DNA of 64,000 nucleotides from Bacteriovoracaceae bacterium (GTDB lineage: Bacteria; Bdellovibrionota; Bacteriovoracia; Bacteriovoracales; Bacteriovoracaceae), in NCBI GenBank assembly GCA_028101965.1, contig JAOHMI010000004.1, forward strand, positions 1 through 64,000. Reading direction: 5' to 3'. The notes under the pieces are model-generated. The model saw only the letters and a list, made by a program, of their open reading frames with translations. It made no database searches and was not told where the DNA came from. Within the stretch, counting starts at the first letter, position 1, and the number at the start of each line of letters is the position of its first letter. A program made the position numbers and the translations under genes. Positions 3,731-19,320 of this stretch are shown here, piece by piece.

Positions 3731-4203
3731 ACTTATTTCCTTTTCCTTAATCCTTAGCTTATATAGAGCAAGCTCCGTGCCAGTTATTTGAATTAAAATT
3801 GTTCAAAGATTAATCAATTTTCTTAAACAATAGGGTAAAAAAGAAAATGTGTTTAAAAGTTAGACACTAATTGATGATCGAAGGTGAGTATAAAAGGGGG
3901 GGGGTAAATAACTGGAGGAGACGGCCGGATTCTTCCTCTTTTATTGTTAAGAGCTCTTTAACACATTGATATTGCAGCAATAAATCAAAAATTAAATCAC
4001 GAACCTACTATCTGAATTGTTACCTATTATTAGAGAGTTATAATTATATTTAACTGTGATAGCCCATTTTTAGCCCCTTTTATGTGAAGATAATAAAGAG
4101 TTTTTGGAACAAATTTCCTATTTTAAAAAAAAACATTAATATCTCGAATCAAATATCCTAAACAAAGTATTAGCAAAGGTATTCAGGAGTTATTTAAGGC
4201 AAT
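3731..4203. other. Non-coding gap at the left side of the accessory island
   Basis: No convincing gene. It contains a run of nine G at 3896-3904, unusual in this A+T-rich DNA. A GAGGA/TCCTC imperfect hairpin at about 3915-3938 is followed by TTTT. An imperfect palindrome, TGTTAAGAGCTCTTTAACA, lies at 3945-3963. Divergent promoters for the flanking genes must lie here but none is clear. The left edge of the island may fall in this gap. Confidence 0.4.
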
Positions 4204-6354
4204 ATGAGAAGAGATTCCTATCCAAATAAAAAGCTAACTAAAGAGATTGTAAATAATAGATTAGCTTCAAGGAACATTTCATTAGAAGGAGATTACACTA
4301 ATCATAGCACCCCAACTTCTTTTAAGTGTTCCAAAGGTCATACTTGGGATTCAAGGCCTACTAATGTATTAAGTGGAACGGGCTGTCCCTATTGTTCAGG
4401 TAATAAGTTAGATAAAAACAATTCGTTGGGAAAGCTCAACACTCAACTGGCGAAAGAATGGCATTCTTTTAAAAATGGAAGTTTAACACCTTTTGATGTT
4501 TCACCAAACTCAGGAAAGAAAGTATGGTGGAAGTGCCCTAAAGATAAGAATCACGAATGGAAAGCAGTAATACAAAGTAGATCTCAAGGTTGTGGTTGCC
4601 CTTATTGCTCTGGTCGTATGCCCGATAAAAATAATAACCTTGAAAAATCATCCCCTGAATTAATAAAAGAGTGGCATTCCGAATTGAATGGAGAGCTTAA
4701 TCCAAATAGATTTACACCACGTTCGGGGAGAGTCGTTTGGTGGAAATGCAGTAAAGGAGAAGACCATGAGTGGAGATCTAGTATAGTTAACCGAGTGAAG
4801 GGAAACGGGTGTCCTATCTGCTCAGGGAGAAAAGCTGTTAATTCAAATTGTCTTGCAACTTTAAATCCAAATTTAATCGGTGAGTGGTGCAAGGTTAGGA
4901 ATATTAAGCTTTCACCTTATGATGTTACACCTGGTTCAAACAAAAGAGTTTGGTGGAAGTGTTCCAAAGGTGAAGATCACGTCTGGAAAGCCTCAGTCGC
5001 TGATAGGGCCGCTGGCAGCATGTGTCCTATTTGTGCCAACCGAAAAATAGTAAAATCAAACTGCTTAGCTACATTAAGACCTGATTTGTTGAATGAATGG
5101 CATCCTACTAAAAATGGCAAAAGAACACCTTATAACGTTCATCCAGGATCAGGGTTTAGAGTATGGTGGAAATGTATTTTTGGGCATGAATGGAAAACAG
5201 CAATATATCATAGGGGAATTCAAAATCATGGATGCAATGCATGCAGTAACAAAACAAGTATACCTGAATTAAGAATTTTAGCAGAGTTAAAAATTATATT
5301 TCCAACGATCCAACATAGAGTTGTTATTACAGGTTATGAAGTTGATTTATATATTCCCGAAATAAATTTAGCTATCGAGTATGATGGAGTCTATTGGCAT
5401 AAAGACAAAGTAGAAGCAGATAGGAAAAAAAACAAAACTTTAGAATCAGAGTTAACCTTGATTCGTGTAAGAGAAAAGGGTCTAGATAAAATTAGAAAGC
5501 ATGATATTCTTTTAGAGAAAACTGAAATTTCACATAATGATATTAAAAAGATACTAAAACTAATAGTTTTTAGACTAAATGCAAGCACATTATTAAATCT
5601 GGAAAGAATAAACAAATATCTAAATAGTGCTGAATGGAATGCAAGTAAATATTTTGACAAGCTTTGCTCTGAAAAAAAGCATATATCATTTGAGGAATCA
5701 ATAAGCTTTCATTATCCCAAGTTGGCCTCAGAGTGGTATGCAACTAAAAATGATCCGCTTTTACCTGAGTTTTTTAGGCCTGGCTCAGGTAGGAAAGTTT
5801 GGTGGCAATGTCCAAAAAATCTAGAGCACATATGGAAAGCTTCTATAAACTCAAGAAAGAAGGGTCATGGATGCCCGATTTGCGCGGGGGTTGTGACTAC
5901 TGAGTCAAACTCGCTAGCCAAGCTTCATCCTAAATTGTCTAAAGAATGGCATCCTGTTAAGAATAATGAATTAAAGCCTACTGATGTTAGCCCTGGCACT
6001 CATAAAAAAGCTTGGTGGATATGCAAGAAGGGACATGAATGGTATTCAGCAATTAGGCATCGATCTACTGGAGTAGGATGCCCCTATTGTTCAAATAAAA
6101 AAGTTACTAAGGATAATTGTCTATCTAAGACTCACCCGAAGCTATCAAGGGAGTGGCATAAAAGTAAAAACAAAGATCTTTCACCAAGCGATGTTACTTA
6201 TGGAGTAGGTCGAAAGGTTTGGTGGAAGTGTCATTGTGGAAATGAGTGGGAGGCCACTATTTCAAATAGAGCTAGAAGGGGAGATGGGTGTCCAAGCTGT
6301 AGGAAAAACAAAAAGAAGGATAAGTCTCAGCTAGAGATGGTATTTAAAACTTAA
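4204..6354 (+). CDS. Zinc-ribbon (DUF4379) repeat protein with an internal Vsr/DUF559-like nuclease domain
   Basis: A 716-residue protein made of eight treble-clef/zinc-ribbon repeats, five before and three after a PD-(D/E)XK nuclease-like domain. Each full repeat has the pattern EWH...P.DV.PGS...VWWKC..GH.W...GCP.C, matching DUF4379. Repeats 2-5 begin at 4444, 4657, 4870 and 5083, an exact 213-nt (71-residue) period. Repeats 6-8 begin at 5719, 5932 and 6139. The domain at residues 350-440 has VDLYIP (Asp381) and LAIEYDG (Glu392, Asp394), the arrangement seen in DUF559/Vsr-like nucleases. Proteins of this type occur in phages and defence-like islands. It probably binds DNA through the repeats and cuts or nicks it; the target is unknown. 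AAGG precedes the start. Confidence 0.8.
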   Translation: MRRDSYPNKKLTKEIVNNRLASRNISLEGDYTNHSTPTSFKCSKGHTWDSRPTNVLSGTGCPYCSGNKLDKNNSLGKLNTQLAKEWHSFKNGSLTPFDVSPNSGKKVWWKCPKDKNHEWKAVIQSRSQGCGCPYCSGRMPDKNNNLEKSSPELIKEWHSELNGELNPNRFTPRSGRVVWWKCSKGEDHEWRSSIVNRVKGNGCPICSGRKAVNSNCLATLNPNLIGEWCKVRNIKLSPYDVTPGSNKRVWWKCSKGEDHVWKASVADRAAGSMCPICANRKIVKSNCLATLRPDLLNEWHPTKNGKRTPYNVHPGSGFRVWWKCIFGHEWKTAIYHRGIQNHGCNACSNKTSIPELRILAELKIIFPTIQHRVVITGYEVDLYIPEINLAIEYDGVYWHKDKVEADRKKNKTLESELTLIRVREKGLDKIRKHDILLEKTEISHNDIKKILKLIVFRLNASTLLNLERINKYLNSAEWNASKYFDKLCSEKKHISFEESISFHYPKLASEWYATKNDPLLPEFFRPGSGRKVWWQCPKNLEHIWKASINSRKKGHGCPICAGVVTTESNSLAKLHPKLSKEWHPVKNNELKPTDVSPGTHKKAWWICKKGHEWYSAIRHRSTGVGCPYCSNKKVTKDNCLSKTHPKLSREWHKSKNKDLSPSDVTYGVGRKVWWKCHCGNEWEATISNRARRGDGCPSCRKNKKKDKSQLEMVFKT

Positions 6355-6483
6355 TCAATTCAGTTTATTTCTCAAAAAGAATGTAAAATTACTAATTTCT
6401 TTGATTTTCGAGGCATAACTACTTTAGTTTTATATATTTACATTCGATAAATTGTTCATCTGATATTATTTTAAGGACAAGAT

Positions 6484-7377
6484 ATGATTAGGCTGATTCT
6501 AGTTTTAATATTTGTTGGTTGTGCTTCAATGAAGCCTAAGTATAAAAAACTCAAAGTTGGAGACTCAAAGGAGTTGTTGATAAAAGAGTTAGGTAGTCCA
6601 AAAGAGAGTGTCAAGCTGAATGAAAAAAGAAGTTATTATATTTTTGATAAGGCAATATTTCTAGTTGAGGGAAATGAAATTCAAAAAATAGTTTATGTAA
6701 ATAAAATAAAAAGAAAAAAACTAAAACTTTTGAATAATTCACTTAAGAGAAAACTAGATAAAAAACATAGGTATTATTTATTAGATTCAGTGGGGAAAAC
6801 TGAAAGAGAAAGGATGGAGTATTCTTATTACCGACCTCTCATTAAAAAAGCCTTGATCATTAATGGGTTCAATCTACTAGAACAAGAGCAAGCAAAAAAA
6901 GCAGATGTAATCATTACAGCATTTTGGAAGGATGATTTATCAACGACTGAAAGAAAAGAAGCTGTGTACAACAATAATTATACTGCTCCAGATAGCTACA
7001 GTATCACCGATGGCTACGGCAATAATCTTATGAATATTCAGGATAACTCTAATCCTTATGGTGATTGGTCATCAAACTATGCAGGAGAGAGAACAGTAAG
7101 AACAAGCTATAGAGCAAATTATATTAAACTCATTGCATACAGCAAAGATGACTTAATAAAAAAGAAAAATACACTTACCCCTATATGGATTTCTAGTTCT
7201 ATGTACTTTAGAGATATATCAGAGACTAAAAATGATGAAATTGCAGTCCCTGTAGTAGTTTATGAAGCTGTTAAAAACATTGGAGTAAATAATCTATCTA
7301 ATAAAGAGTCTAAGTTTGTTACAGACAAAGATTCAAAATTTATAATATTTCAAAATGAAATAATGGAAAAGAATTAA
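6484..7377 (+). CDS. Lipoprotein with BamE/SmpA-like N-terminal segment
   Basis: A 297-residue protein with a short hydrophobic leader and a lipobox-like FVGC (Cys13), so probably a lipoprotein, although Phe at -3 is not ideal. Residues 20-65 (VGDSKELLIKELGSPKES) resemble the small BamE/SmpA domain, including the G.P turn. The rest, rich in Asn, Tyr and Lys, resembles DUF4136-type lipoproteins only loosely. AAGGA lies seven bases before the ATG. It is followed after 3 bp by the zinc-finger/AbiGi-like gene, so the two are probably co-transcribed. Its place between two defence-like genes may mean it is island cargo. Function unknown. Confidence 0.6.
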   Translation: MIRLILVLIFVGCASMKPKYKKLKVGDSKELLIKELGSPKESVKLNEKRSYYIFDKAIFLVEGNEIQKIVYVNKIKRKKLKLLNNSLKRKLDKKHRYYLLDSVGKTERERMEYSYYRPLIKKALIINGFNLLEQEQAKKADVIITAFWKDDLSTTERKEAVYNNNYTAPDSYSITDGYGNNLMNIQDNSNPYGDWSSNYAGERTVRTSYRANYIKLIAYSKDDLIKKKNTLTPIWISSSMYFRDISETKNDEIAVPVVVYEAVKNIGVNNLSNKESKFVTDKDSKFIIFQNEIMEKN

Positions 7378-7380
7378 ATT

Positions 7381-8487
7381 ATGTTGGTGTGTCGTAGGTG
7401 CTATGAAGCCAGCTCTGATTTTATAAAAGCTGAAAAACATACAGAAATTATAGAAAAAGAATGCAATTTATGCAATGAAGAAATTAACAATGAATATTAT
7501 GACATTGTTAACATAGATCTAAAGTTTGAATTAAAAAAAGAGTCATTAATTCTTATTTTAGGCTGCAATTCGTGTATTGAAGAGGATGGTTTTTACAATT
7601 GGAAGAAAGAATTTTTTGGTGAGAGGGAGTTAAATGGCGTTATTGAAGATGCATTTATTGAAGGAAAAAATGGAATCGAAGATACCAGCTATAGGGAGCT
7701 ATTAAATTATTTGGATATTACTGAGTATATTGAGGCGTCGGACTATTGCTGTCCCAAATGCAACTACAATTTTGAGTCTTGGTTGGATGAAGTTAAAATC
7801 AAATCTAACCGTATGCTAATTCCTGAAATACCAAAGCTACCTGAAAACATAAAAAAAATACCAGATTTAAAATTAAGTAAAAAGATTGAGTTCTATCGGG
7901 CAGATTACTCGAATTACTTAATTCATTTAACTAAAAAGTTACTTCTTCCTGTTAGAGTTGACAATGAAAGTTATATTGAAACGATGAAAGAGCTTGAAGC
8001 TGTTGAGATTTTATATATTATTCTAGAAAATGCTACAATTAAAGCTTTCAAAGGGATAGGAATGAAGTCCGAGGCTGTATGTTTTACTGAAAAACCTCTT
8101 TCTGCAATAAAAGAAACATTATTTGGCAATGAAAAATATGTTAGGGAAAACTCTAGAAGCATCTTATGGGATTCATTTGGATTGATGTTTGAAAAAGAAT
8201 ACCTAATAAATAAATTTAAAGCAGCACCTGTGATTAGTGTTGATAAGACAGAAATGGATAAGGTTGATAAAGGTTTACATTTTAGAGTGGTGCTGGGAAA
8301 TTTGAATAAAAACTGGTGTCATGAGAGAGAGTGGAGAACCAAGGAATCAATTAAATTTGATACTAAAGAAGCCATAGTAATTGTGCCCACATTTGAGTAT
8401 GCAAAAGAGTTTAAAAACATATTAGACGCTTCAGGAATTGAGGTTAAAGGATTTATTCCAATCTGGGATATATCTTCTGCTATTTAA
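7381..8487 (+). CDS. Zinc-finger protein with an AbiGi/DUF2971-like C-terminal domain
   Basis: A 368-residue soluble protein. The N-terminal 130 residues carry CxxC pairs: Cys4/Cys7, Cys28/Cys31, CNSC at about 64 and CPKC at about 124. These probably bind zinc. The C-terminal part has FYRADYSNYLIHLTK, then a hydrophobic stretch ending in CFTEKPLSAIKE, and finally CHEREWR near residue 313. This order (ligand-entry helix, CF[TS]..PL, then H/YE.EWR) is that of AbiGi and DUF2971 proteins linked to abortive phage infection. The match is by motif only. It starts 3 bp after the lipoprotein gene and overlaps the 3' end of the convergent gene at 8480 by 8 bp. Confidence 0.5.
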   Translation: MLVCRRCYEASSDFIKAEKHTEIIEKECNLCNEEINNEYYDIVNIDLKFELKKESLILILGCNSCIEEDGFYNWKKEFFGERELNGVIEDAFIEGKNGIEDTSYRELLNYLDITEYIEASDYCCPKCNYNFESWLDEVKIKSNRMLIPEIPKLPENIKKIPDLKLSKKIEFYRADYSNYLIHLTKKLLLPVRVDNESYIETMKELEAVEILYIILENATIKAFKGIGMKSEAVCFTEKPLSAIKETLFGNEKYVRENSRSILWDSFGLMFEKEYLINKFKAAPVISVDKTEMDKVDKGLHFRVVLGNLNKNWCHEREWRTKESIKFDTKEAIVIVPTFEYAKEFKNILDASGIEVKGFIPIWDISSAI

Positions 8488-8779
8488 TTTTAGCTTTTTT
8501 CAAAGTTTTGGCCTTCAAGATCACATCTTCAATTGAGTCTTTAGAATATTCGACAGAAATTTGTTTCCGTTTTGGATATAAATAAGTACATACTTCTTTT
8601 AAAGCTTTAAATTGAACTTCTAAGCTAATTTCTTTCCCGTTAGTAGCCTCTTCTTTTCCATTGGCTATGTGTAGTAGAGTCTCAAATGGATTGTAGTTAA
8701 GAGCCTCAACGATTTCTTCAAGGTTTTTAGTTTTTTTGTTTGGGGTGCCTTTTTTTCGGCCTGATCCGGGTACTTTCAT
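8480..8779 (-). CDS. Phage terminase small subunit-like / DNA-binding protein
   Basis: A 99-residue basic protein. The N-terminus PGSGRKKGTPNKKTKN is the AT-hook-like leader typical of small phage or prophage proteins annotated as terminase small subunit or DUF5681. It is followed by a helical region with VCTYLYPKRKQISVE, which also recurs in those proteins. It probably binds DNA. It is convergent with the gene before and divergent from the gene after, and its presence supports a phage-satellite or prophage origin for this part of the island. No large terminase or capsid gene is nearby. Confidence 0.55.
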   Translation of the reverse strand: MKVPGSGRKKGTPNKKTKNLEEIVEALNYNPFETLLHIANGKEEATNGKEISLEVQFKALKEVCTYLYPKRKQISVEYSKDSIEDVILKAKTLKKAKIK

Positions 8780-8902
8780 TCTTACCTCTACTTTTCTCTA
8801 TTTTAGACTATATGAGTAAAAATGAAAATTTACTTCTTGGGTAAAGAATAATATATGATGATTGTTAAATATGATTAAATTGAGCAATTTAGTGTCAGTG
8901 TT

Positions 8903-9745
8903 ATGGAAAAATTTAAAAGAGAATCATTGGAAGAGATCTTTGGTTTCGTTAATGATGACAAATTAGTAAAAAGCCTTATTGAATACTTGGGACACAATAA
9001 GAAAACAGACCCATTTATCTTCGAATTAAATTCCCTTCAGAGAAGTTATCGAGATGTTTTAAAGTTAGAGCAAGAGATGAGACATAATACCTTTAAAAAG
9101 GTCCTAGACATTTTTTCGTCAGTCCTTGAACTAAAGCAAAAAAGAAAACACATCGAAGCATTGGATCTATTTAAGATTGAGGTTCTCTCAAAAGATGTTG
9201 TAATTGATAATATTAACAATCCGTGCATTAAGCTTAAATTTAATAAATCCATTAGAGGTCAATTAAGAGCTGCTGAAAAAAAAGGGGATGCGGACCAGGC
9301 AATAAAAAACTTACTGAAAGAAAAAGCCACAGAAAAATATGAAAATCCTTACATTTCCTTTTTAGAAGGAAAAATCGATGAAGAGACATTACTCAAAACT
9401 TATTTAAAAAATAAAGATAAGATTTGTGCTGAATTAAATTCATCTATAAAATTAGAAAAAAGCGGACGAGGAAAAAATCTTACCGCAGCCAGAGATGCTA
9501 TGGTTTTTGACCTTAATCGAATTTATACAATGTATTTAAAAAGTTTTTTTATAACTAATTTAAGAGCTGTTTCAAAGGCGATGAATGCTAGTTCTAATCT
9601 AAGGAATGATAGTTCGATTGAATTTGAATTTATACGTTCGATCAATAATCTTTTAGATAAAAATGAATTTATTTTCAAAATTATAAATAAGACGGAATTA
9701 AATCCAGAGCATTATCACTCACTAAAGAGTAAACTTTTAGATTGA
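8903..9745 (+). CDS. Hypothetical island protein
   Basis: A 280-residue soluble, mostly helical protein rich in Lys, Glu, Asn and Leu. There is no signal peptide, no membrane segment and no motif I can assign. A basic stretch SGRGKNLTAARDAM lies at about residues 187-200. No Shine-Dalgarno is visible before the ATG, unlike most neighbours, so translation may be weak or leaderless. It sits alone between a divergent terminase-like gene and the excisionase-like gene, 199 bp apart. It probably belongs to the mobile element. Confidence 0.5.
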   Translation: MEKFKRESLEEIFGFVNDDKLVKSLIEYLGHNKKTDPFIFELNSLQRSYRDVLKLEQEMRHNTFKKVLDIFSSVLELKQKRKHIEALDLFKIEVLSKDVVIDNINNPCIKLKFNKSIRGQLRAAEKKGDADQAIKNLLKEKATEKYENPYISFLEGKIDEETLLKTYLKNKDKICAELNSSIKLEKSGRGKNLTAARDAMVFDLNRIYTMYLKSFFITNLRAVSKAMNASSNLRNDSSIEFEFIRSINNLLDKNEFIFKIINKTELNPEHYHSLKSKLLD

Positions 9746-9944
9746 AATAATGCTAAGCGATGTGCCGTTTTACCATCTCAAAAAAAATTATAAAAATTTA
9801 CTTGCTAACTATTTGTTTTCATTTTGGTTTTTATGCCCAAAAAGATAGCACTTTTTTATTTGCGATGAGGTGCAGCCATTTCTGATCTGCTTAAATCTCT
9901 TTATGCGTCTTTGAAATTACGAAGACGAAACTAAGGAGAATATA

Positions 9945-10139
9945 ATGAGCAAAGTTACAAATGATGAATTTTGTACTGTCGATCAAATTTCAAAAAAATT
10001 TAATCTTACAAAGTCTTGGTTAAGGTATGGCATTTTTCACAAGCTATTCCCTTTTTATAAATTAGGACGCCAGATAAGAATTAAGGAGAGTGAGTTTTTG
10101 GATTGGATTAACAACAAAAGAGAAGGAGAAAATTCTTAA
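9945..10139 (+). CDS. Excisionase/AlpA-type helix-turn-helix protein
   Basis: A 64-residue protein of the MerR-like excisionase class (HTH_17). The sequence runs TVDQISKKFNLTKSWLRYGI, then FPFYKLGRQIRIKESEFLDW. This is the usual helix-turn-helix with the wing G..IRI..S.F..W. AAGGAG stands seven bases before the ATG. Such proteins direct excision or regulate element genes. Together with the primase pieces just downstream it suggests an integrative element or phage satellite. No integrase is present in the window. Confidence 0.75.
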   Translation: MSKVTNDEFCTVDQISKKFNLTKSWLRYGIFHKLFPFYKLGRQIRIKESEFLDWINNKREGENS

Positions 10140-10291
10140 AAAGATACTTCAGCGATAGTGCTATATAAAGAAAATAGGTGTTCTTAGTATAGCAAACTCA
10201 GATTAATTTAAACAGGGTTATTATAATCCAAAATGAGTATCTCATTCTTGAGATGTATTGGATTCCTATGCCCATTATGAGGTTATACAAA

Positions 10292-10519
10292 ATGAACTAT
10301 AATTTTACTAAAGATGAAATAATAGAAATCTTTTGCGAAGTATTTAAAGATCTTTGCATTCACAAAAACCAACAAAATGTTTCTTGTATCTTTCACGAAG
10401 ATAGAAAGCCTTCGATGTCTGTTAATTTAGATAAAGGAGTTTTCTATTGTTTTTCGTGCGGAGAGAAAGGAAATATCGTCACTTTAAAAAAGTACACAAA
10501 AGGAAATTTCAATGAATAA
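10292..10519 (+). CDS. CHC2-type primase zinc finger protein
   Basis: A 75-residue protein. I start it at the ATG preceded by GAGG nine bases upstream rather than at 10253. It carries the CHC2 zinc-binding motif of DnaG-type primases: VSCIFHEDRKPSMSVNLDKG followed by FYCFSCGEKGNIV. So Cys, His, Cys, Cys ligands are all present. Phage and satellite primases often encode this module separately. It overlaps the TOPRIM-containing gene by 8 bp, so the pair would act as a split primase. The element's partner has since been truncated. Confidence 0.75.
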   Translation: MNYNFTKDEIIEIFCEVFKDLCIHKNQQNVSCIFHEDRKPSMSVNLDKGVFYCFSCGEKGNIVTLKKYTKGNFNE

Positions 10520-11114
10520 GATAGAAGAAAAAAACATTCAGGTTCTAAAGGTAAGTGAATTTAGTTCAGAGTTGATAGAAAAGTGGAAGGAAAAAGGAAT
10601 CAAGGAAGAGATCTTAAAACAAAATTGCTTTCCAGTATCCCTTCGTTTTAAAAATTCTAAAGTTAATTATGAGGGGGTAGGTATTAGGCTTTTTAATGGA
10701 TCAGAGCGATACATTTATTTTGATAATCAAGCTAACAAAAGCATTTTTTCAAATGGGAAAATTTCTCCGATAGTCCCTGAAAAATTTAACGAATCTCAAA
10801 ATTTCGTAATTTTCAGTGAAGGAGAGTCGGATTATCTGAAAATTAAAGAATACTACCCAAATGTAGTAGGAATTCCAGGATTTGGAAAGGGTAAGATCTA
10901 CTATAACGCTGATACTTCTAATGGCAACTCAGGGTCCCCTATTATCTTAGCAGGAACCAATCGAGTGATTGGTATCCATACCAATGGTGGTGGTTGCTAT
11001 CGTCAAACAAGACAAAATAGTCCTCGAGGTAATCATGGACAGCTTTTCTCAGGAAGAGAAGATCTAAGAACCATGATTAGTGAATGCCTGGCTTGGGAGG
11101 AGAATAACCTGTAG
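10512..11114 (+). CDS. Chimera: truncated TOPRIM primase fused to the tail of a trypsin-like protease
   Basis: A 200-residue reading frame of two unrelated parts. Residues 1-127 are primase-like and end in the first TOPRIM block (FVIFSEGESDYLKIKEYYP, Glu103). The later DxD block that binds metal is missing. From about residue 128 (position about 10893) the sequence becomes the C-terminal third of a V8/trypsin-like serine protease: YYNADTSNGNSGSPIILAG, with Ser140 in GNSGSP, then VIGIHTNGG. The His and Asp of the triad are absent. The best reading is that a mobile element sat in a protease gene and its end was lost or joined so that the frames fused. Neither activity should survive. No 5' part of that protease is in the window. 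Confidence 0.75.
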   Translation: MNKIEEKNIQVLKVSEFSSELIEKWKEKGIKEEILKQNCFPVSLRFKNSKVNYEGVGIRLFNGSERYIYFDNQANKSIFSNGKISPIVPEKFNESQNFVIFSEGESDYLKIKEYYPNVVGIPGFGKGKIYYNADTSNGNSGSPIILAGTNRVIGIHTNGGGCYRQTRQNSPRGNHGQLFSGREDLRTMISECLAWEENNL

Positions 11115-11210
11115 GCAAAACCTTCTTCTTTTTCATTAAGTCTCTAGTTTTCTTTTGAAATAACCGAAATTCATCGCAGATCAGAATGATTTTAAAGCAA
11201 AGGATTTGCG

Positions 11211-12368
11211 ATGGTTTTCAAAAAACTCTTTTTATATATTTTATCCATTCTTCTTTTTAATGTTTATGCTTCCGTCTCAAAAGAGCATACAGGAGAATTG
11301 TTATATCGCTTTAAAGAAAGCCTTAGAAAAAGTGACTCGTCCTCTAACATTTATCAAATTTATCGGCCCTTAAAGAATAACTTGGCAGAAGAAACTCTAG
11401 AAAAAGTTCGTCAAAAAATGATTCAATCTGATCAATTTGAATTTGTAGTTTACAATACTGTTGAAAAACCATTGATCAATTTACAACCGAATGGAAATTC
11501 CTTTTCTCAATGGCATCATAATAATATAAAAACCAAAAGTGCGTGGAAGGTTACTCAAGGATCCTCCCAAGTGGTGGTAGCTGTATGCGACTCAGGCCTT
11601 GAACACGAGCATTCTGCTTTTAAAAATAAAACGGCTCCCGGTTGGAATTTTCGCACAAATAACCGTGATACATCTCCTCAAACCACCCATGGTACTTTTG
11701 TAGCTGGGATCATCGCCGGAACTCCTGAAAAAAACTTTACTGGTATTGCACCAAAAATAAAAATTATGCCACTTGTAATTACGAATAATTCAGGTTCCAC
11801 CACTATAAAAATTATTTCAGATTGTATAACCTACGCTGCCGACCAAGGAGCAAAAGTTATTAATGTTTCTTTTACTGGCATAAACTCTCCTGTTATCAAT
11901 GCAGCAGGAAAATACGCTCGTGATAAAGGATCACTGGTAGTGTACGCAGCTGGAAATCGCGGAAAACGAAGATCAATAAAAACTTATCCTGATTGGAAAT
12001 CAATTTTAGCCGTTGGAGCAACCACAAGGTCAGATCAAAGATGGAAGTGGAAAAAAATGTTTAAGCAAGGTGGATCAAACTATGGGTACTTTATCGATTT
12101 AGTGGCACCCGGGCATAATATGGTTTCCACTAATGCTTATTTAACTTTTAACAAATCAAATCCTTATCGTAAAGGAAGTGGTACTTCCTATGCAGCGCCA
12201 GTGGTTTCTGCAGTTGCAGGACTTGTCTTCTCCCTCAATAAGAACTTTACCCCAGAAAAAGTAGAACAAATTTTAATTGAGAGTTCTGATATCATTGGCA
12301 GTGAATTTGTCTTTGGTGCGGGAAGAGTCAATGCAAATCGAGCTGTTGAACTAGCCATCAGTCACTAA
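11211..12368 (+). CDS. Secreted subtilisin-like serine protease (S8)
   Basis: A 385-residue protein with a signal peptide ending around VYA (residue 20). A propeptide-like region runs to about residue 100. The catalytic domain then has Asp127 (VVVAVCDSGLEHEH), His160 (TTHGTFVAGIIAG), oxyanion Asn249 (YAAGNR) and Ser326 (GSGTSYAAPVVSA). All triad residues are intact, so it should be an active exported endopeptidase. AAAGGA precedes the ATG and lies inside a small inverted repeat, GCAAAGGATTTGC, at 11197-11209. Its stop overlaps by 4 bp the stop of the convergent 1911-residue gene. It follows directly on the protease remnant, so this may once have been a protease cluster. Confidence 0.93.
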   Translation: MVFKKLFLYILSILLFNVYASVSKEHTGELLYRFKESLRKSDSSSNIYQIYRPLKNNLAEETLEKVRQKMIQSDQFEFVVYNTVEKPLINLQPNGNSFSQWHHNNIKTKSAWKVTQGSSQVVVAVCDSGLEHEHSAFKNKTAPGWNFRTNNRDTSPQTTHGTFVAGIIAGTPEKNFTGIAPKIKIMPLVITNNSGSTTIKIISDCITYAADQGAKVINVSFTGINSPVINAAGKYARDKGSLVVYAAGNRGKRRSIKTYPDWKSILAVGATTRSDQRWKWKKMFKQGGSNYGYFIDLVAPGHNMVSTNAYLTFNKSNPYRKGSGTSYAAPVVSAVAGLVFSLNKNFTPEKVEQILIESSDIIGSEFVFGAGRVNANRAVELAISH

Positions 12369-15300
12369 TTACCACCTGGAATGAGATCTGGCTTTGGATT
12401 ACCCATTACACAGCCTGAAATAGCTTTGATGAGCTTTGAAGAAAAGTTTTTCACTCCATCCTTAACATATCTTTGTGCAACATATTTATTTAAAGCTGCA
12501 TTAATGTCATCAACATACCCTTCTTTTTCGAGATAAAGTAATTCCTTAAACAAACCAAGAGAGAACTTAACATGCGGTTTAAAGTTATTACTACTCATGA
12601 TGTCTCTAATCTCAGTTATTTTATCAAAATTAGCTAAGTTAGAATTTAATACCCTCTTAATTTCACTTTGAATTTTAATTGCATCATATTCAGTTGGAGG
12701 ATTTTCAGCAAAACTAGCAAAAGCACCAAATATTTTCTTTTCATCATTTTCATCAAGGCCTCGAAAAAGTTTAGTTACTCTTGATAATTCATCTGCTTTA
12801 AAAGGGTTTTTACTTATATCAAGTTGTTCGGTTTGCATAACATCAATTAAAGTCACTACTGGAGGATCTTTAGTGAAGTCAAAAAGCATATTCCCCGTAT
12901 GAGGGTCACCTTGAATTACTCCTTTAGTCATTAATGAATCCAGATAGAAGTCTGTTACGATCGGTCCAACTAATTTCTTTTCTGCTTCAGTCAGTTCCCC
13001 CCAAGACTTACCAACGGCTTCATCTAGAGCAACTATTCTTTTTTGTGAACCAATAATATCCTCCCGCACTCCAACTGTTTTCAAAATGACAGGGGGTTTT
13101 TTTCTTTTTGTATAATCATCAATTAAATCTTGCCAAATTTTAGCTACGGCCTTAACTTCACGATTGTCTAACTCCTTTAAACTCTGAGTTCTCAAGTCGC
13201 CAATCAAATAGGCAACAGCTTTTGGGTTAAAGATAGCTCCTTCGGGTCCAACCCCTGCTTTAACCGCCTCTACTCTTAATCTTTCATATTCCAGGACAAA
13301 TTCAATGGCCAAATCTGATTGAGCATTAATGGCATAAGCTAGGTTTTCTTTTTGAATGAGAAAAACCGTAGTTCCTCCACCCCTTAAATTAACCCTCACT
13401 GCACAGTTTGCACTTCCACAGCCAATAATATCATCAATTATATTACCCTTATTCAATTTCTCTAATTCTTCGCCTGATAAAGCACTACTAATATATTGCT
13501 GAAGCTTCTCTTTGCTTGGGGAAGAAGCATTAGATTTAACATCTGCGAGAGCTTCGTTAGTGTCATCATCCAACATTTTTAATACGGAAGCGAATTGTGC
13601 AAACCTCTCCCCTAATAATCCAAAGCTTGAAAATAGCTCAACTATTCCTGACTTTGTTCCCCGTATTCCACTTTCTGTGTGCGCCATGATATAGCTCAAG
13701 ACAAAATGTTTCTCCACCTTACCCAACTTATTCATCAGGGCTTTAATCATTAAACCTTGATGACTGTTTTTATTAACCTTAAAGCCTTCCTCAATAACTT
13801 CATCTAAATAATTAGGACTTTTATTAATCGCCCCTTCACCTTTAGAGATTAAGACATTTAAGAAAGCGGCTTTTCCTAGAGTATTTAAACTGGACGCTTT
13901 CGATTCAAGTTTATGAACCACATAATTTAATCCATTCTGTGCCATTTTTTTCATTTTAGCCTCAGAAGCATAGACTAATTTATCATCACTTTTAGGCAAG
14001 AGCAGCCCTTGATCATTTAAAAATTTCATTTCCTTATAGATCGAAGCTAAAATATGCTCCTTCAAGCTACCATCAATTTTAATATTACGACTTCCCATTA
14101 CATCACTTAATATATTCAAGCGATCTTCGGGTCTTAAGTAATCAGCATACTCACTTAATTCACCAAGTGATCCCTCAAGTAATGTAAAAATACTACTATC
14201 TTCGACTAAGCGAGATATTTTTAAATTATTAACAAAAGTCTCTTGATCAGCATTGTTTAATTTAAACTTCAATCCGGCTTGTTCTAAATAACCATCTTTT
14301 TCAATTCCCAGCTCGGGAACTAACTCTTGTAGTTTCCCAAAAAAATCCTTTATCTTTTGCTGTGGATACTCACCTCGTTTTCTCAACTCGACAATTTCAT
14401 TAAACTCATCTTCATAAGTAAGTTTAAAAATTTGAATTTTTAGATCTGTATTTTGAATGATAGATTTTTTAATTGTATAACTTCTTTTATATCCAGTCGT
14501 CCCAATAGAGTCTCCATTCTCCATGACAATTTTAGTTTCTAAAACTTCGAGTAATCTCTTGTTAGTCCGATCTTTTATGCTTTTATCAATGCTCGATCTA
14601 TTTAATTTTTTAGCATCTTCTATGATTATCTTTAAGAAATTATCTGTTTCAACACTTGAGTTATACTTCGTTAGTTTTAGATAGAGATCTATCTTTTCTT
14701 CAAGTGTCAGATTTAACTGATCCCCTTTTTCAACAATATACTTCGTAATATTAATAATTCCATTATCCACATCTGAAATTTTATAAGTTACCAATTCACT
14801 TTTATTTGTGCCAGGAACATACATCCTTTCTCCCGCCCCTAAACTTATTTCCATTTCTCGATGATCTGTTTCACCAAACACAAAACTATCCACCACTTGG
14901 AAAAGTTTAGATTTGTCCCCTTGAATTCTATTATCGATATTTTCGACATAATCTTCTGTATAGATCGACGTTAAGTAGGTTCTTGTTCGTGAATACCGAC
15001 TACTTTTAGGTGTACTGTATTTATTTTCTTCCAGACGACTGGCATTGTGCACATACCTTGGGTCAAGTTCTACAATATCATCAAGATTTATTTCGACCTT
15101 ATACTTATTTATTATTCTTTCCAAATCAAAGTAATCAAATTCTTCAAATAAGTTTTCTTCAATGAATCTTTTAAATATTTTCTTCTTTTCACTATCGTTA
15201 ATATCCTCGATATTTTCAATTAGCTCCATAAACATAGACGTCGAAAATTTGTTTTGAAAGTTCGACAGCTTATAAGAGAATTCCCCCTTATAGTATTCCT

Positions 15301-18100
15301 GGAATTCAGTTACGGTTTGATGATACTTCTCTACTATGCTTTCGTATGATTGATCTGTTTTGTAGTATTTTTTAAGAAAACTTTCCTTTAGCAAAGCAAA
15401 AGCCTGATCCTTAAATCTTAATTTATAAAAAGATCCAAGATCTTTTGTGGTAGCATCCGATCTTTTCATATCTTTAAATACTTCCTTAAAGCCCTCAATA
15501 AACTTCTTTGACTCCCTGTGGTAATCGCCGCGATGGCTTTGATTATTATATACGTCCTCAAGTGTGCTTAATCTAAATTTGGATTCAATAAAACCTTCTT
15601 CTAAAAATTGAGGTTTATACTCTTGAGACACAACCCTAATATCTTCATATTTTTCTAGCACTTCAAGGTTTTCAATTTCATCGAGATACTTATAGTATTT
15701 TGAATAAATGTCATCTGAATCAGGAACCTTATTCTCCATTTTCCAATCCTCAAAAGATAAGCTCTTTGTCCCTTTTAAAAATGAATCTAAACTTTCCGAT
15801 TCTTTTTCAATCAACCACATTGCTTTCTCAATCTGATTGTCTAATCCCTTATAAAAAGTAACATCCACCCACTCATTATACCGACTACCAAATCGATCAC
15901 GCCTTCCCGATTCTCGTAATATATCAGATCGTGGGATATCTCCACGTAGGATAGCGGAAGCCACTTTTTTTCCATCATTAAAGTACTCTGAAAGACCATT
16001 GTTTAGCTTTTTATAGAAATCCGCTTTACTCATATTCTTTAATTCTGGATAGTTTTTATTTTCAGGTAATTGCGCAATTTCAAGAAATGTCTCCCAATCA
16101 TACATGCCACTAGTTGTAAAATCAGCAAAAGCGACTGATTTTAAAATCTCATCATCATTAACAATTTTATCAAAAAATGAACAAACCTGTTCAACCATCT
16201 CTGGATTCTTTTTATATAATTCTAATTTTTCAAGCCTAATTTCTTTAATTCTGTCTTGATTTTTCTCATCCACAATAGGAATCAAGTTACCGAAAACCTT
16301 AGGGCCAAAGAAATTAAATTTTACATTTGGAGATAAATTCTTATCAAGAACTTCATTGTAAAAGCGAGAAAGATAATATTCATCAAACGCGATGGATGGA
16401 CCTTTACGATGAGAAAACCCTGAAAAACGATAAACATCTTCAGTGGGAGCGAATCCATTATCATCTCGGTCAAACTTGGTATAGAGATTTATTAAGCTAA
16501 TTTCTTTAGGCGATATTTCTCCAAAGAATCTTTTATATTTAGCTAAAGTTAAATCATCATATTTAGGAGCTTGACCCGAGATCATATCCTCTGACAATTC
16601 CATAAAAGGATTAAAGACGTGCTCTACAATTAAATCTCGATAATCATTTGGCTTAACAAAGTAAAAATAGTCATCCCAACTATATGCAGCACGATCAACC
16701 CTCCATTCGCCATTAAGATAAAGGTTCTCAAATGCCATTTTTGAATTTTTCCCATAAGCAGGTGAATTATCAATATAGAACCATTGATTTTTAATTTTAT
16801 CTTGCCCTGGAGGTAAAAGATCTTTCAACCCAGTAACTGGGTTAATCATTTGATTTAATTTTGCCTCATCTAAGATGATTTTCTTTTTATGATCTTTTAG
16901 TAATTCAATAAATTTATAGTAGTCTTCGGTATTTTTTGTGATATTGGCTTCATCTAAGAAATGATTATTCATCCAAATGAGTAATCGGTTAAATTCGAGA
17001 TTTCCAAATTCATCCCACTTATTCTTCGCTATAAGTTTTTCCATTCTATCGTGAGCATCTTCTATGGCAGAAGGATTTACCCATTTAAAAACTTCACCTT
17101 CTCTTAAGGATTCTGCTTCTTGGGAAAAAATACTAGGAAGGCTCGAATTAAAGCTAGTATCATATTCACGAGTAGGAACTCCCACATCTAATCCTAGCCT
17201 GCTTTCTAAAACTGTTCTTTGAGCATTTGTGCTAACTCCACCATTCTTGTCTTTTATGTCATAAACTTCAGCAAGTATAGAAGGGTCTATCTTTTGGTCG
17301 GCCAACAAATCGATTGAACGATTTGTTCCATTAGCTTTAGCCGATAATTCATTAATCGTTGCGTCTTGGGCTTTTGCTCTAGCGAGATCTGCTTTGGCTT
17401 TAGCAACATTAGGATCCGTTCCACCAAACAACCCTCCGCCAGAAGAAGCCATTTCGATTAAAGTCTCATTTCTCTTTGAAACATAATCAGTGTATTTTCC
17501 TTGGGCCATAAGCCTTGCTAGGTCTGCATCTGATTTTAAGTCAAAATCTTTGGTTACTGTTGTCTCCACCGCATCGACTAGATATGCCCTAAGTATTTTA
17601 TGCTTATGTATACTTATATCTTCATTTATAAATTTCTGGTAATCCTCTCCGTGCTTCTCCTTCATACTACTAAGATAGGAACCTTGTTTAAATTGAGGGT
17701 AGTTTTCTTCATTGACTAAAATTTCCTCCAAAGCTTTAGTCGATAGAAAAACTGAAACTCGATTGTATTTAATCCCAGCAGGAGGGTTTTGAACCAGAGA
17801 ATAGGAGATTACATTTTGGGATTCAATTATTTTCACTTCACCCAAAACAAAATTCATATCATTCCCGGTACCACTTAAGTTTTCTGTTTTAATACTTAAG
17901 AGTTCATCCTTAATCAATGTTCTTAATCCCTCTTCTAGCTCCTCATTCTCGTGAAAAGAATAACCTTTTCCTAATATTGAATTAACATAGCTCTTTTCAG
18001 TATCATCATAGATTTTCTCAACATTAGAGAGACTAAATTGTTGAGCAAAGCTGAAGCTAGTCCAAAAAATGAAAGTTAGTAGGTAAATAAATAATTTCAC
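12365..18100 (-). CDS. Giant exported protein with C-terminal ABC1/UbiB-like kinase domain
   Basis: A 1911-residue protein with a signal peptide ending at about SFSFAQ. Most of it is charged and helical with no family I can name. Residues 190-260 include an Ala/Lys-rich helix. Near the C-terminus an ABC1/UbiB-type kinase fold is visible. There is an N-lobe strand pair (CAVRVNLRGGGTTVFLI, about residue 1575), SLKELDNREVKAV, and the catalytic loop GVIQGDPHTGNMLFD (Asp1732). A metal-binding strand VTLIDV (Asp1753) follows, where UbiB has DFG. The Gly is lost, so activity may differ. UbiB proteins are normally cytosolic or membrane-bound; an exported member is unusual and would need ATP from outside the cytosol, perhaps from prey. 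It stands alone, flanked by protease genes. Confidence 0.7.
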   Translation of the reverse strand: MKLFIYLLTFIFWTSFSFAQQFSLSNVEKIYDDTEKSYVNSILGKGYSFHENEELEEGLRTLIKDELLSIKTENLSGTGNDMNFVLGEVKIIESQNVISYSLVQNPPAGIKYNRVSVFLSTKALEEILVNEENYPQFKQGSYLSSMKEKHGEDYQKFINEDISIHKHKILRAYLVDAVETTVTKDFDLKSDADLARLMAQGKYTDYVSKRNETLIEMASSGGGLFGGTDPNVAKAKADLARAKAQDATINELSAKANGTNRSIDLLADQKIDPSILAEVYDIKDKNGGVSTNAQRTVLESRLGLDVGVPTREYDTSFNSSLPSIFSQEAESLREGEVFKWVNPSAIEDAHDRMEKLIAKNKWDEFGNLEFNRLLIWMNNHFLDEANITKNTEDYYKFIELLKDHKKKIILDEAKLNQMINPVTGLKDLLPPGQDKIKNQWFYIDNSPAYGKNSKMAFENLYLNGEWRVDRAAYSWDDYFYFVKPNDYRDLIVEHVFNPFMELSEDMISGQAPKYDDLTLAKYKRFFGEISPKEISLINLYTKFDRDDNGFAPTEDVYRFSGFSHRKGPSIAFDEYYLSRFYNEVLDKNLSPNVKFNFFGPKVFGNLIPIVDEKNQDRIKEIRLEKLELYKKNPEMVEQVCSFFDKIVNDDEILKSVAFADFTTSGMYDWETFLEIAQLPENKNYPELKNMSKADFYKKLNNGLSEYFNDGKKVASAILRGDIPRSDILRESGRRDRFGSRYNEWVDVTFYKGLDNQIEKAMWLIEKESESLDSFLKGTKSLSFEDWKMENKVPDSDDIYSKYYKYLDEIENLEVLEKYEDIRVVSQEYKPQFLEEGFIESKFRLSTLEDVYNNQSHRGDYHRESKKFIEGFKEVFKDMKRSDATTKDLGSFYKLRFKDQAFALLKESFLKKYYKTDQSYESIVEKYHQTVTEFQEYYKGEFSYKLSNFQNKFSTSMFMELIENIEDINDSEKKKIFKRFIEENLFEEFDYFDLERIINKYKVEINLDDIVELDPRYVHNASRLEENKYSTPKSSRYSRTRTYLTSIYTEDYVENIDNRIQGDKSKLFQVVDSFVFGETDHREMEISLGAGERMYVPGTNKSELVTYKISDVDNGIINITKYIVEKGDQLNLTLEEKIDLYLKLTKYNSSVETDNFLKIIIEDAKKLNRSSIDKSIKDRTNKRLLEVLETKIVMENGDSIGTTGYKRSYTIKKSIIQNTDLKIQIFKLTYEDEFNEIVELRKRGEYPQQKIKDFFGKLQELVPELGIEKDGYLEQAGLKFKLNNADQETFVNNLKISRLVEDSSIFTLLEGSLGELSEYADYLRPEDRLNILSDVMGSRNIKIDGSLKEHILASIYKEMKFLNDQGLLLPKSDDKLVYASEAKMKKMAQNGLNYVVHKLESKASSLNTLGKAAFLNVLISKGEGAINKSPNYLDEVIEEGFKVNKNSHQGLMIKALMNKLGKVEKHFVLSYIMAHTESGIRGTKSGIVELFSSFGLLGERFAQFASVLKMLDDDTNEALADVKSNASSPSKEKLQQYISSALSGEELEKLNKGNIIDDIIGCGSANCAVRVNLRGGGTTVFLIQKENLAYAINAQSDLAIEFVLEYERLRVEAVKAGVGPEGAIFNPKAVAYLIGDLRTQSLKELDNREVKAVAKIWQDLIDDYTKRKKPPVILKTVGVREDIIGSQKRIVALDEAVGKSWGELTEAEKKLVGPIVTDFYLDSLMTKGVIQGDPHTGNMLFDFTKDPPVVTLIDVMQTEQLDISKNPFKADELSRVTKLFRGLDENDEKKIFGAFASFAENPPTEYDAIKIQSEIKRVLNSNLANFDKITEIRDIMSSNNFKPHVKFSLGLFKELLYLEKEGYVDDINAALNKYVAQRYVKDGVKNFSSKLIKAISGCVMGNPKPDLIPGGN

Positions 18101-18465: not shown

Positions 18466-19320
18466 TTATTTTGTTAGTACACAGCCTTTAACTGCTGTAT
18501 CGATTTTAAAATCGGCCGTTAAACATCCGTAGAATTGATGAACTTGCTGACCATAACTGTATTTTTTCATAACAGTTACTTTTCCAGCAGAGTCAACTTC
18601 GCATGGATTATTTAAAGTACATTTTCGCCCTCTTTCATTACTAGTGTTATTCACACCAATAACTTTTCGCGTTCCAGTTTCAATAATTGGAGATCCACTC
18701 GTTCCACCAATAGTCTCACATCCAGGCTTAGAGTAGCGAATTGAATCATTCCAAGACCATTTAGCTTCTTTAAGTTTGAAAATAAAATTATCGATTGAAC
18801 AACGGTATCCTCTTTCCCAGTAACCTGAAACAACGTCCATTTTTGTTCCAACAGTTGATCGAGAAGGCATCATTTCAAAAGCTCTGATTCCCATTTTCTC
18901 TAGATCTTCATAAGTTTCTTTTAACTCATAAAGAGCAGCATCTGTTCCAGTCATCGTTGCATACATTAAAGATTGAGCTGTTATATTAAAAAACTTCATA
19001 TCTTTATCAGCAACTTTCATTTTTCGGTTTGACTTAACATTTTTACGTGCTTCATTTGGCTTTAAAAAACCACCGCCTAAACAATGCCCATTAGTTAAAA
19101 CATAAGCATTTGAAGTTTTTGGCTGTCCACTAAAAATGATAACGGCCCCTGAACAATTGCTCAGTTTAACAATTCCTTCAAAGTCATAATTAAACTTTTC
19201 ATTAGCATTAAAGGTTTTCATAGCAGATACATCATACTCAAGTGCATTAAATGGTGCAGTTGGTAGTGAGTAAGCCGTAGCAAAAGATAGAGATAAAAGA
19301 CTTAGGATAAACAGTTTCAT
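18466..19320 (-). CDS. Secreted trypsin/V8-like serine protease (S1)
   Basis: A 284-residue protein with a signal peptide ending about SFATAYS. The triad is complete: His79 in VLTNGHCLGGG, Asp127 in TGTDAALYEL and Ser208 in GGTSGSPIIE. Several Cys in the mature part could form disulphides, which fits an exported enzyme. GGGAGGAA is six bases before the ATG, a strong ribosome site. A sigma70-like promoter lies upstream and a perfect hairpin terminator downstream, so it is a single-gene unit. The Ser-region motif GxSGSPI resembles that of the protease tail fused to TOPRIM at 10893-11114, so the two proteases may be related. Confidence 0.92.
   Translation of the reverse strand: MKLFILSLLSLSFATAYSLPTAPFNALEYDVSAMKTFNANEKFNYDFEGIVKLSNCSGAVIIFSGQPKTSNAYVLTNGHCLGGGFLKPNEARKNVKSNRKMKVADKDMKFFNITAQSLMYATMTGTDAALYELKETYEDLEKMGIRAFEMMPSRSTVGTKMDVVSGYWERGYRCSIDNFIFKLKEAKWSWNDSIRYSKPGCETIGGTSGSPIIETGTRKVIGVNNTSNERGRKCTLNNPCEVDSAGKVTVMKKYSYGQQVHQFYGCLTADFKIDTAVKGCVLTK

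Follow-up and report, generated by a model that had tools for sequence, protein, structure and literature searches.

The gene at positions 12365..18100 (minus strand) of the window, the whole 64,000-nucleotide stretch of Bacteriovoracaceae DNA that was analysed, encodes a divergent paralogue within a family of giant exported proteins that join an M48 metalloprotease to a UbiB/ABC1 domain. Our computation shows that the protein belongs to this family and is collinear with its relatives, that its modelled C-terminus has the UbiB fold, that the zinc motif of the protease and the ATP-anchoring lysine of the UbiB domain are both lost, and that the same genome carries protease-intact paralogues. In our best explanation, which we hold at a little under even odds (roughly 0.45), the UbiB domain would bind a ligand and the protein would regulate its live paralogues.

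The family of exported M48–UbiB fusions is apparently undescribed until now. A search of the open-licence literature, which leaves bioRxiv and most subscription papers outside and is weak evidence of novelty for that reason, returned neither exported ABC1 proteins nor M48–ABC1 fusions. The consulted portion of a 2005 survey of prokaryotic kinases joins ABC1 to RIO1-like, Usp or membrane segments and leaves M48 unmentioned (PMC1262709), and a term search finds M48, ABC1 and UbiB absent from the main text of a 2024 comparison of Bdellovibrionota predators (PMC11656739).

The window protein (P0001) is read from a single open frame of 1911 codons and a stop, with a GTG start at 18100 and no internal stops in the ORF reading. 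Residues 1–19 (18044..18100, minus strand) form the signal peptide. The N-terminus, VKLFIYLLTFIFWTSFSFA followed by QQ, satisfies a simple rule consisting of a basic n-region, an 11-residue hydrophobic core and a small-x-small cleavage site; the cleavage site between SFA and QQ is placed by eye. The rule fires on 28 of the 32 family proteins whose N-terminus was available, the four that fail being L079, L080, L093 and L095, and on none of the controls (0 of 160 interior windows of family proteins; 0 of 17 ordinary ABC1 proteins). The exported protein of 1911 residues described in the initial annotation therefore stands. No further membrane segment is evident, the best 19-residue hydropathy past residue 30 being 1.03. 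Pfam and NCBIfam recognise no translocation domain in the protein, and NCBIfam gives no match to it. We infer export by Sec and a soluble state, in the envelope or outside it. A phage origin was also considered and rejected, with no match to the protein in a tblastn search of a phage collection.

The C-terminus of the window protein is a UbiB/ABC1 fold in the predicted structure. The AlphaFold2 model of residues 1438–1911, made with 27 family rows as alignment and without templates, has a mean pLDDT of 87.2 and a pTM of 0.85. The 12 best PDB rows found by Foldseek all belong to the UbiB family, with COQ8A at the top (5i35, E 1.9e-11), followed by MSMEG_1954 and Rv3197. VIA aligns 352 residues of the model with COQ8A (7udp; Z 25.6, rmsd 3.8 Å), and the best row outside the UbiB family is RIOK3 with a Z of 11.7. 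The alignment spans residues 258–644 of COQ8A, the KxGQ lobe within, and residues 44–444 of the model, which correspond to residues 1481–1881 of the protein (12458..13660, minus strand). The model thus presents a protein-kinase-like fold with the N-terminal KxGQ lobe specific to UbiB. By profile, the domain is below threshold: Pfam ABC1 (PF03109) gives 14.1–16.5 bits against a cut-off of 22.9, which several relatives pass, and it matches 25 of the 27 C-termini of alignment A2 at E 0.01. PDB sequence searches with the last 411 residues of the window protein and with the relative L092 return no match. The fold and the family alignment indicate that the ABC1 likeness is not due to chance. The initial annotation had recognised this likeness from the GDPHTGN and LIDV motifs, both present, and had named fold prediction as the check; the kinase lobe is found, KxGQ lobe included.

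To compare motifs, we align 34 exported and 17 ordinary ABC1 rows. The KxGQ equivalent of the window protein is RFAQ (residues 1499–1502; 13595..13606, minus strand), in which Arg1499 replaces the lysine and the motif is thus incomplete; the glutamine is present in 34 of 34 exported members and the lysine in 28 of them. The catalytic-loop equivalent, GDPHTGN (residues 1731–1737; 12890..12910, minus strand), keeps Asp1732 and Asn1737. The DFG aspartate is kept as Asp1753 (12842..12844, minus strand) in LIDVMQ, of which LIDV is residues 1751–1754. Each of the loop His, the loop Asn and the DFG Asp is found in all 34 exported rows, and the loop Asp in 32, with Glu in L081 and L098. The only invariant columns of alignment A2 (27 sequences) are the KxGQ Gln, the A-loop Gly, the loop His, the loop Asn and the DFG Asp. 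The A-rich (AAAS) loop position reads GCGSAN in the window protein and GSAS or GSGS in relatives. The αC-Glu of the window protein is excluded from the comparison, the residue being V or Glu depending on a one-residue gap in the alignment. We take D507 of COQ8A to be the DFG aspartate, equivalent to Asp1753. The activation-loop substitution D507N leaves COQ8A catalytically inactive, according to the consulted part of the source (PMC7877690), whose text agrees with D507 as the DFG aspartate.

The initial annotation had pointed to the missing glycine of DFG. This is correct, and the phenylalanine is changed as well (the motif reads DVM, with the aspartate kept). A stronger defect, beyond that point, is the missing VAVK lysine, the position being occupied by Leu1581 (13358..13360, minus strand). 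Lysine is present here in 17 of 17 ordinary ABC1 rows; the 34 exported rows have lysine in 7, arginine in 7 and a non-basic residue in 20, Leu1581 included. The same replacement is visible when L076 is compared with COQ8B. Throughout the 18-row subfamily of the window protein, protease-intact rows included, the residue is non-basic; the loss is subfamily-wide, and the window protein is therefore no private relic. Of the ATP-independent relic suggested earlier, the independence of ATP gains from this subfamily-wide loss of the ATP-anchoring lysine, but the word relic does not suit a domain whose key residues are kept in 34 of 34 rows.

The plan of the family is a signal peptide, a BepA-type M48 metalloprotease, about 1000 unmatched residues and a UbiB/ABC1 domain. 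Pfam M48 (PF01435) matches the N-termini of 11 of the 17 rows of alignment A5, the window row not among them, and 14 of the 15 rows of alignment A6, hence 25 of the 31 rows other than the window row. Of the 32 N-termini, 27 have HExxH; the motif is absent from L019, L077, L079, L084 and the window protein. The invariant columns of A6 include three residues of HExxH (the Glu and the two His), one Asp and an H-x5-R pair, and the pair fits the HPx4R plug that the consulted part of one source describes for M48 enzymes (PMC7950410).

In the window protein, residues 21–260 (17321..18040, minus strand) probably occupy the place of the M48 peptidase, as judged from collinearity with relatives, and the zinc site is lost. 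In A5, HExxH is replaced by HKILR (residues 167–171; 17588–17602, minus strand), E..AD becomes D..SD, and the HPx4R plug loses the His and keeps the Arg. Of the four zinc ligands of BepA, the first His may persist as His167, the Glu is replaced by Asp, and the other two His are lost; HExxH is absent throughout residues 1–520. Pfam M48 does not match residues 21–440, and an M48 origin is not significant by sequence alone (hhalign E 0.11; best of 60 shuffles 0.051). The AlphaFold2 model of residues 21–440 has a mean pLDDT of 63 and a pTM of 0.41. Its first row in Foldseek is the M48 enzyme Ste24p, which is not significant at E 0.079. The three best rows of VIA for residues 1–237 of the model are all M48 (3c37, Z 7.4; BepA 6ait, Z 7.2; 6sar, Z 6.7), and unrelated rows appear at Z 6.5 and below. 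Because the alignment rows given to the model were M48s, its support is not independent proof.

The region between the two ends is partly collinear with relatives. A conserved block after the M48 position (LEFNRLL; residues 327–401; 16898..17122, minus strand) matches L104 and L101 in blastp (E 0.002 and 0.006, respectively). The linker that follows (residues 402–1116; 14753..16897, minus strand) matches no family and is only weakly collinear. Residues 1117–1437 (13790..14752, minus strand) form a family-specific region before the UbiB domain, found by hhalign and by a profile search with alignment A4. Against a full-length family profile of 14 relatives, with the window protein left out, hmmsearch matches residues 1194–1883 (E 1.7e-78) and hhalign matches residues 1117–1880 (E 3.8e-39) and 327–401 (E 1.9e-4); the reversed sequence gives no match. 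The window protein thus follows the family plan collinearly, with a signal peptide, an M48 position, an unmatched arm and a C-terminal UbiB domain. The earlier picture of a lone exported kinase gives way to that of a divergent, collinear member of the M48–UbiB family, and the statement that most of the 1500 residues before the domain match nothing is superseded by the collinear stretches 327–401 and 1117–1880 and by the M48 place of the first 240 residues.

Relatives are scattered across the phylum and beyond it. Among 129 genomes of the order, 14 matched, the one containing the window included; the matches are of two kinds: G128 and G021 have long relatives, and genus g36 has an ABC1 variant in which a short stretch at the loop matches. 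Across the phylum (368 genomes), a profile built from the first three C-termini finds numerous very long ORFs that carry the domain towards the C-terminal end; at most three candidates were scored per genome, which makes absence there weak. The genes of relatives were read in 25 fetched regions. A contig scan with the whole window protein gave no match because the protein is too divergent, and the scan was repeated with a six-row alignment led by L076. This returns 16 loci, three of them in Elusimicrobia and one in an unclassified bacterium, 40–43% identical over about 425 residues to a protein of Bdellovibrionales. The profile of the region that precedes the UbiB domain, a marker of the subfamily, occurs in 12 of 368 phylum genomes and 12 of 181 genera with up to six candidates scored per genome, indicating that the subfamily is sporadic. 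In 23 family-bearing genomes, the C-terminal profile reveals repeated copies, with four ORFs longer than 1000 aa in G021 and three each in the window genome (G000), G127, G277 and G060.

Seven further long ORFs (L168–L174) lie outside the counts of 32 and 34. HExxH is absent from L168, L169 and L171, occurs once each in L170, L173 and L174, and is absent from L172, which starts at a contig edge. Genome G060 contributes two ABC1-like open frames without HExxH, L168:2678-12727 (3350 aa) and L169:2098-10173 (2692 aa), and carries several further ABC1-like frames. In L087, two family members stand back to back, at 4028-9229 (minus) and 9258-14024 (plus), 28 bases apart as stop-to-stop frames.

In a tree of 51 rows, 32 of the 34 exported rows group together (94/86, not starred), and the exported L089 and L097 fall among ordinary ABC1 rows. 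The starred branches force two label changes; the export architecture was therefore acquired or exchanged on at least two occasions. A starred set of 18 rows (99/95), the Elusimicrobia included, contains the window protein, whose exact place is unsure because of its long end branch (2.15 changes per column). The losses of HExxH (L079, L084, L019, L077 and the window protein) are scattered within this set. The ABC1 variants of genus g36 (L020–L030, about 940 aa) have an ABC1 domain and come from the same bacterial family as the window protein; unlike it, the two tested lack a signal peptide and keep the VAVK lysine, and the variants branch with ordinary ABC1 proteins. In these variants, ADPHAGN and LIDLNP replace GDPHxGN and DFG.

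The window genome contains two further family members, both protease-intact. The G000:C132 paralogue has 1472 aa, HEIAH, DRHDGN and an M48 match above cut-off. The G000:C181 paralogue consists of two overlapping frames, one of 947 aa with HEINH and one of 1131 aa with the UbiB-like end, which jointly give the architecture. The two frames (L098:4370-10592) overlap by 17 bases, by a frameshift, an assembly error or a real split of the gene. Protease-dead members occur in G000, G021, G127 and G157. Protease-intact members are also found in the first three (L098 and L129; L090 and L097; and L082, respectively), and none was among the members found in G157. The window genome also encodes an ordinary ABC1 protein of 532 aa (G000:C156; 215–217 bits). 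In this protein (L031:53-1648), an N-terminal HTH_3 domain (26.4 bits; cut-off 23) precedes ABC1, and its sequence makes a DNA-binding UbiB protein possible.

The window gene is flanked by genes of exported-looking proteases, an S8 protease at 11211-12368 and a trypsin-like protease at 18466-19320. Among 221 ORFs from 32 loci and the window, conserved neighbours amount to seven clusters, each in two loci only. An ORF of 200 aa at 10512-11114 of the window lacks a signal peptide, and its end has a below-cut-off match to trypsin that covers only the C-terminal part (GNSGSP); because the part with the trypsin His and Asp is missing, it is a remnant or a fusion. SpoVR and DUF444 genes (L074:5763-8373 and L084:8110-9999), identified in L074, lie near the family gene in two of the loci.

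Compared with known UbiB/ABC1/COQ8 proteins (PF03109; COQ8A, Rv3197 and MSMEG_1954), the window protein shares the fold including the KxGQ lobe, as well as the KxGQ Gln, the A-loop Gly, the loop Asp, His and Asn and the DFG Asp. Unlike them, it is exported, has Leu for the VAVK lysine, Arg for the KxGQ lysine and DVM for DFG, and carries the domain, below the Pfam cut-off, as the C-terminal end of 1911 residues. BepA, the periplasmic M48 protease of E. coli with a TPR domain, is likewise exported, with the M48 position first and more protein after it, and relatives of the window protein keep its HExxH, E..AD region and, as H-x5-R, the plug. Unlike BepA, the window protein has lost the zinc site, has an arm of about 1000 residues that is not recognised as TPR, and has an added UbiB-like end. 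In plant plastoglobules, PGM48 and ABC1K1/3 bring an M48 peptidase and ABC1 kinases into one compartment, as in the family; these are separate proteins in a plastid, and the parallel is an analogy only.

The window protein is most likely a binding, non-kinase protein of the envelope. After export by Sec, it would stay in solution, either within the envelope or outside. Active members of the family may work in the manner of BepA, with the arm docking on envelope substrates and the M48 domain cutting them. The UbiB-fold domain would bind a ligand (a lipid or a metal-bound group) without phosphate transfer; four conserved residues, the Gln of KxGQ, the His and Asn of the loop and the Asp of DFG, would hold it. 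The window protein would retain the arm and the ligand site; able neither to cut nor to hold ATP normally, it would act as a binding partner or regulator, perhaps of the paralogues G000:C181 and G000:C132, both of them protease-intact. Regulation of a live paralogue is not general, because the protease-dead member in G157 has no intact paralogue found. Counting against this explanation, the M48 remnant is not significant by sequence alone and its model is weak, residues 402–1116 are essentially unmatched, and the neighbour genes indicate no pathway; counting against its non-kinase part, the retained loop and DFG aspartates would also suit an active nucleotide-using enzyme.

An alternative that we regard as somewhat unlikely is an extracytoplasmic lipid handler, whose UbiB-like domain would bind lipids of the isoprenoid or quinone type on the outer side of the inner membrane, much as is proposed for COQ8/UbiB on the inside, the M48 domain being accessory where it is alive. 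According to the consulted parts of two sources, a role for COQ8 in helping to draw CoQ intermediates out of the membrane has been proposed (PMC11495197), and the core proteins of plastoglobules include ABC1K proteins as well as PGM48 (PMC12587418). The KxGQ lobe predicted in the window protein would fit such a role. However, neighbour genes are common to two loci at most and do not indicate a lipid pathway, and the plastoglobule parallel would be an analogy between separate proteins.

It is improbable that the protein is an active atypical kinase or ATPase, exported to a place that contains ATP, such as prey or host cytoplasm, with a Lys or Arg elsewhere (such as Arg1499) substituting for the lysine. 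WNK kinases replace the missing lysine by a basic residue elsewhere. The loop Asp, His and Asn and the DFG Asp are all present, and each of the 34 exported members has a basic residue at the VAVK position, the KxGQ position or both; L094, L095 and L129, which have Ala or Ser at KxGQ, retain the VAVK lysine. However, these three form one clade, and the pattern is therefore one event. In addition, no row of the 18-row subfamily, the three from Elusimicrobia and the one from an unclassified bacterium included, has a basic VAVK residue. Delivery of the window protein into prey, or action in the cytoplasm of prey or host as first suggested, is not favoured: neither Pfam nor NCBIfam yields a translocation domain, Elusimicrobia share the architecture, and the subfamily marker is confined to 12 of the 368 phylum genomes. 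A decaying relic without function is very improbable: the two active ends have degenerated and the end branch, at 2.15 changes per column, is very long, but 1911 codons are open, the signal peptide passes the test, and all five columns invariant in A2 are kept, which drift is not expected to spare.

For the family as a whole, we tentatively propose, as a possibility clearly short of even odds, that the UbiB fold serves outside the cytoplasm as an ATP-free module, either ligand-sensing or catalytic in a non-kinase way, that keeps its metal- and ligand-binding residues while the ATP lysine is lost and is coupled to a BepA-like protease, with some copies, the window protein among them, being double pseudo-enzymes that would regulate their live paralogues. 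It seems that a fold familiar from the cell interior is in use outside cells. UbiB proteins are ancient, and the action of their active site on substrate is still argued. The exported branch appears to be out of the ATP compartment, with the lysine lost and the other residues kept, which would set nucleotide chemistry apart from the fold's other role and make the branch a direct test of that role. The phylum is known for its predators, and its envelope biology gains a protease-coupled UbiB architecture, sporadic in two phyla.
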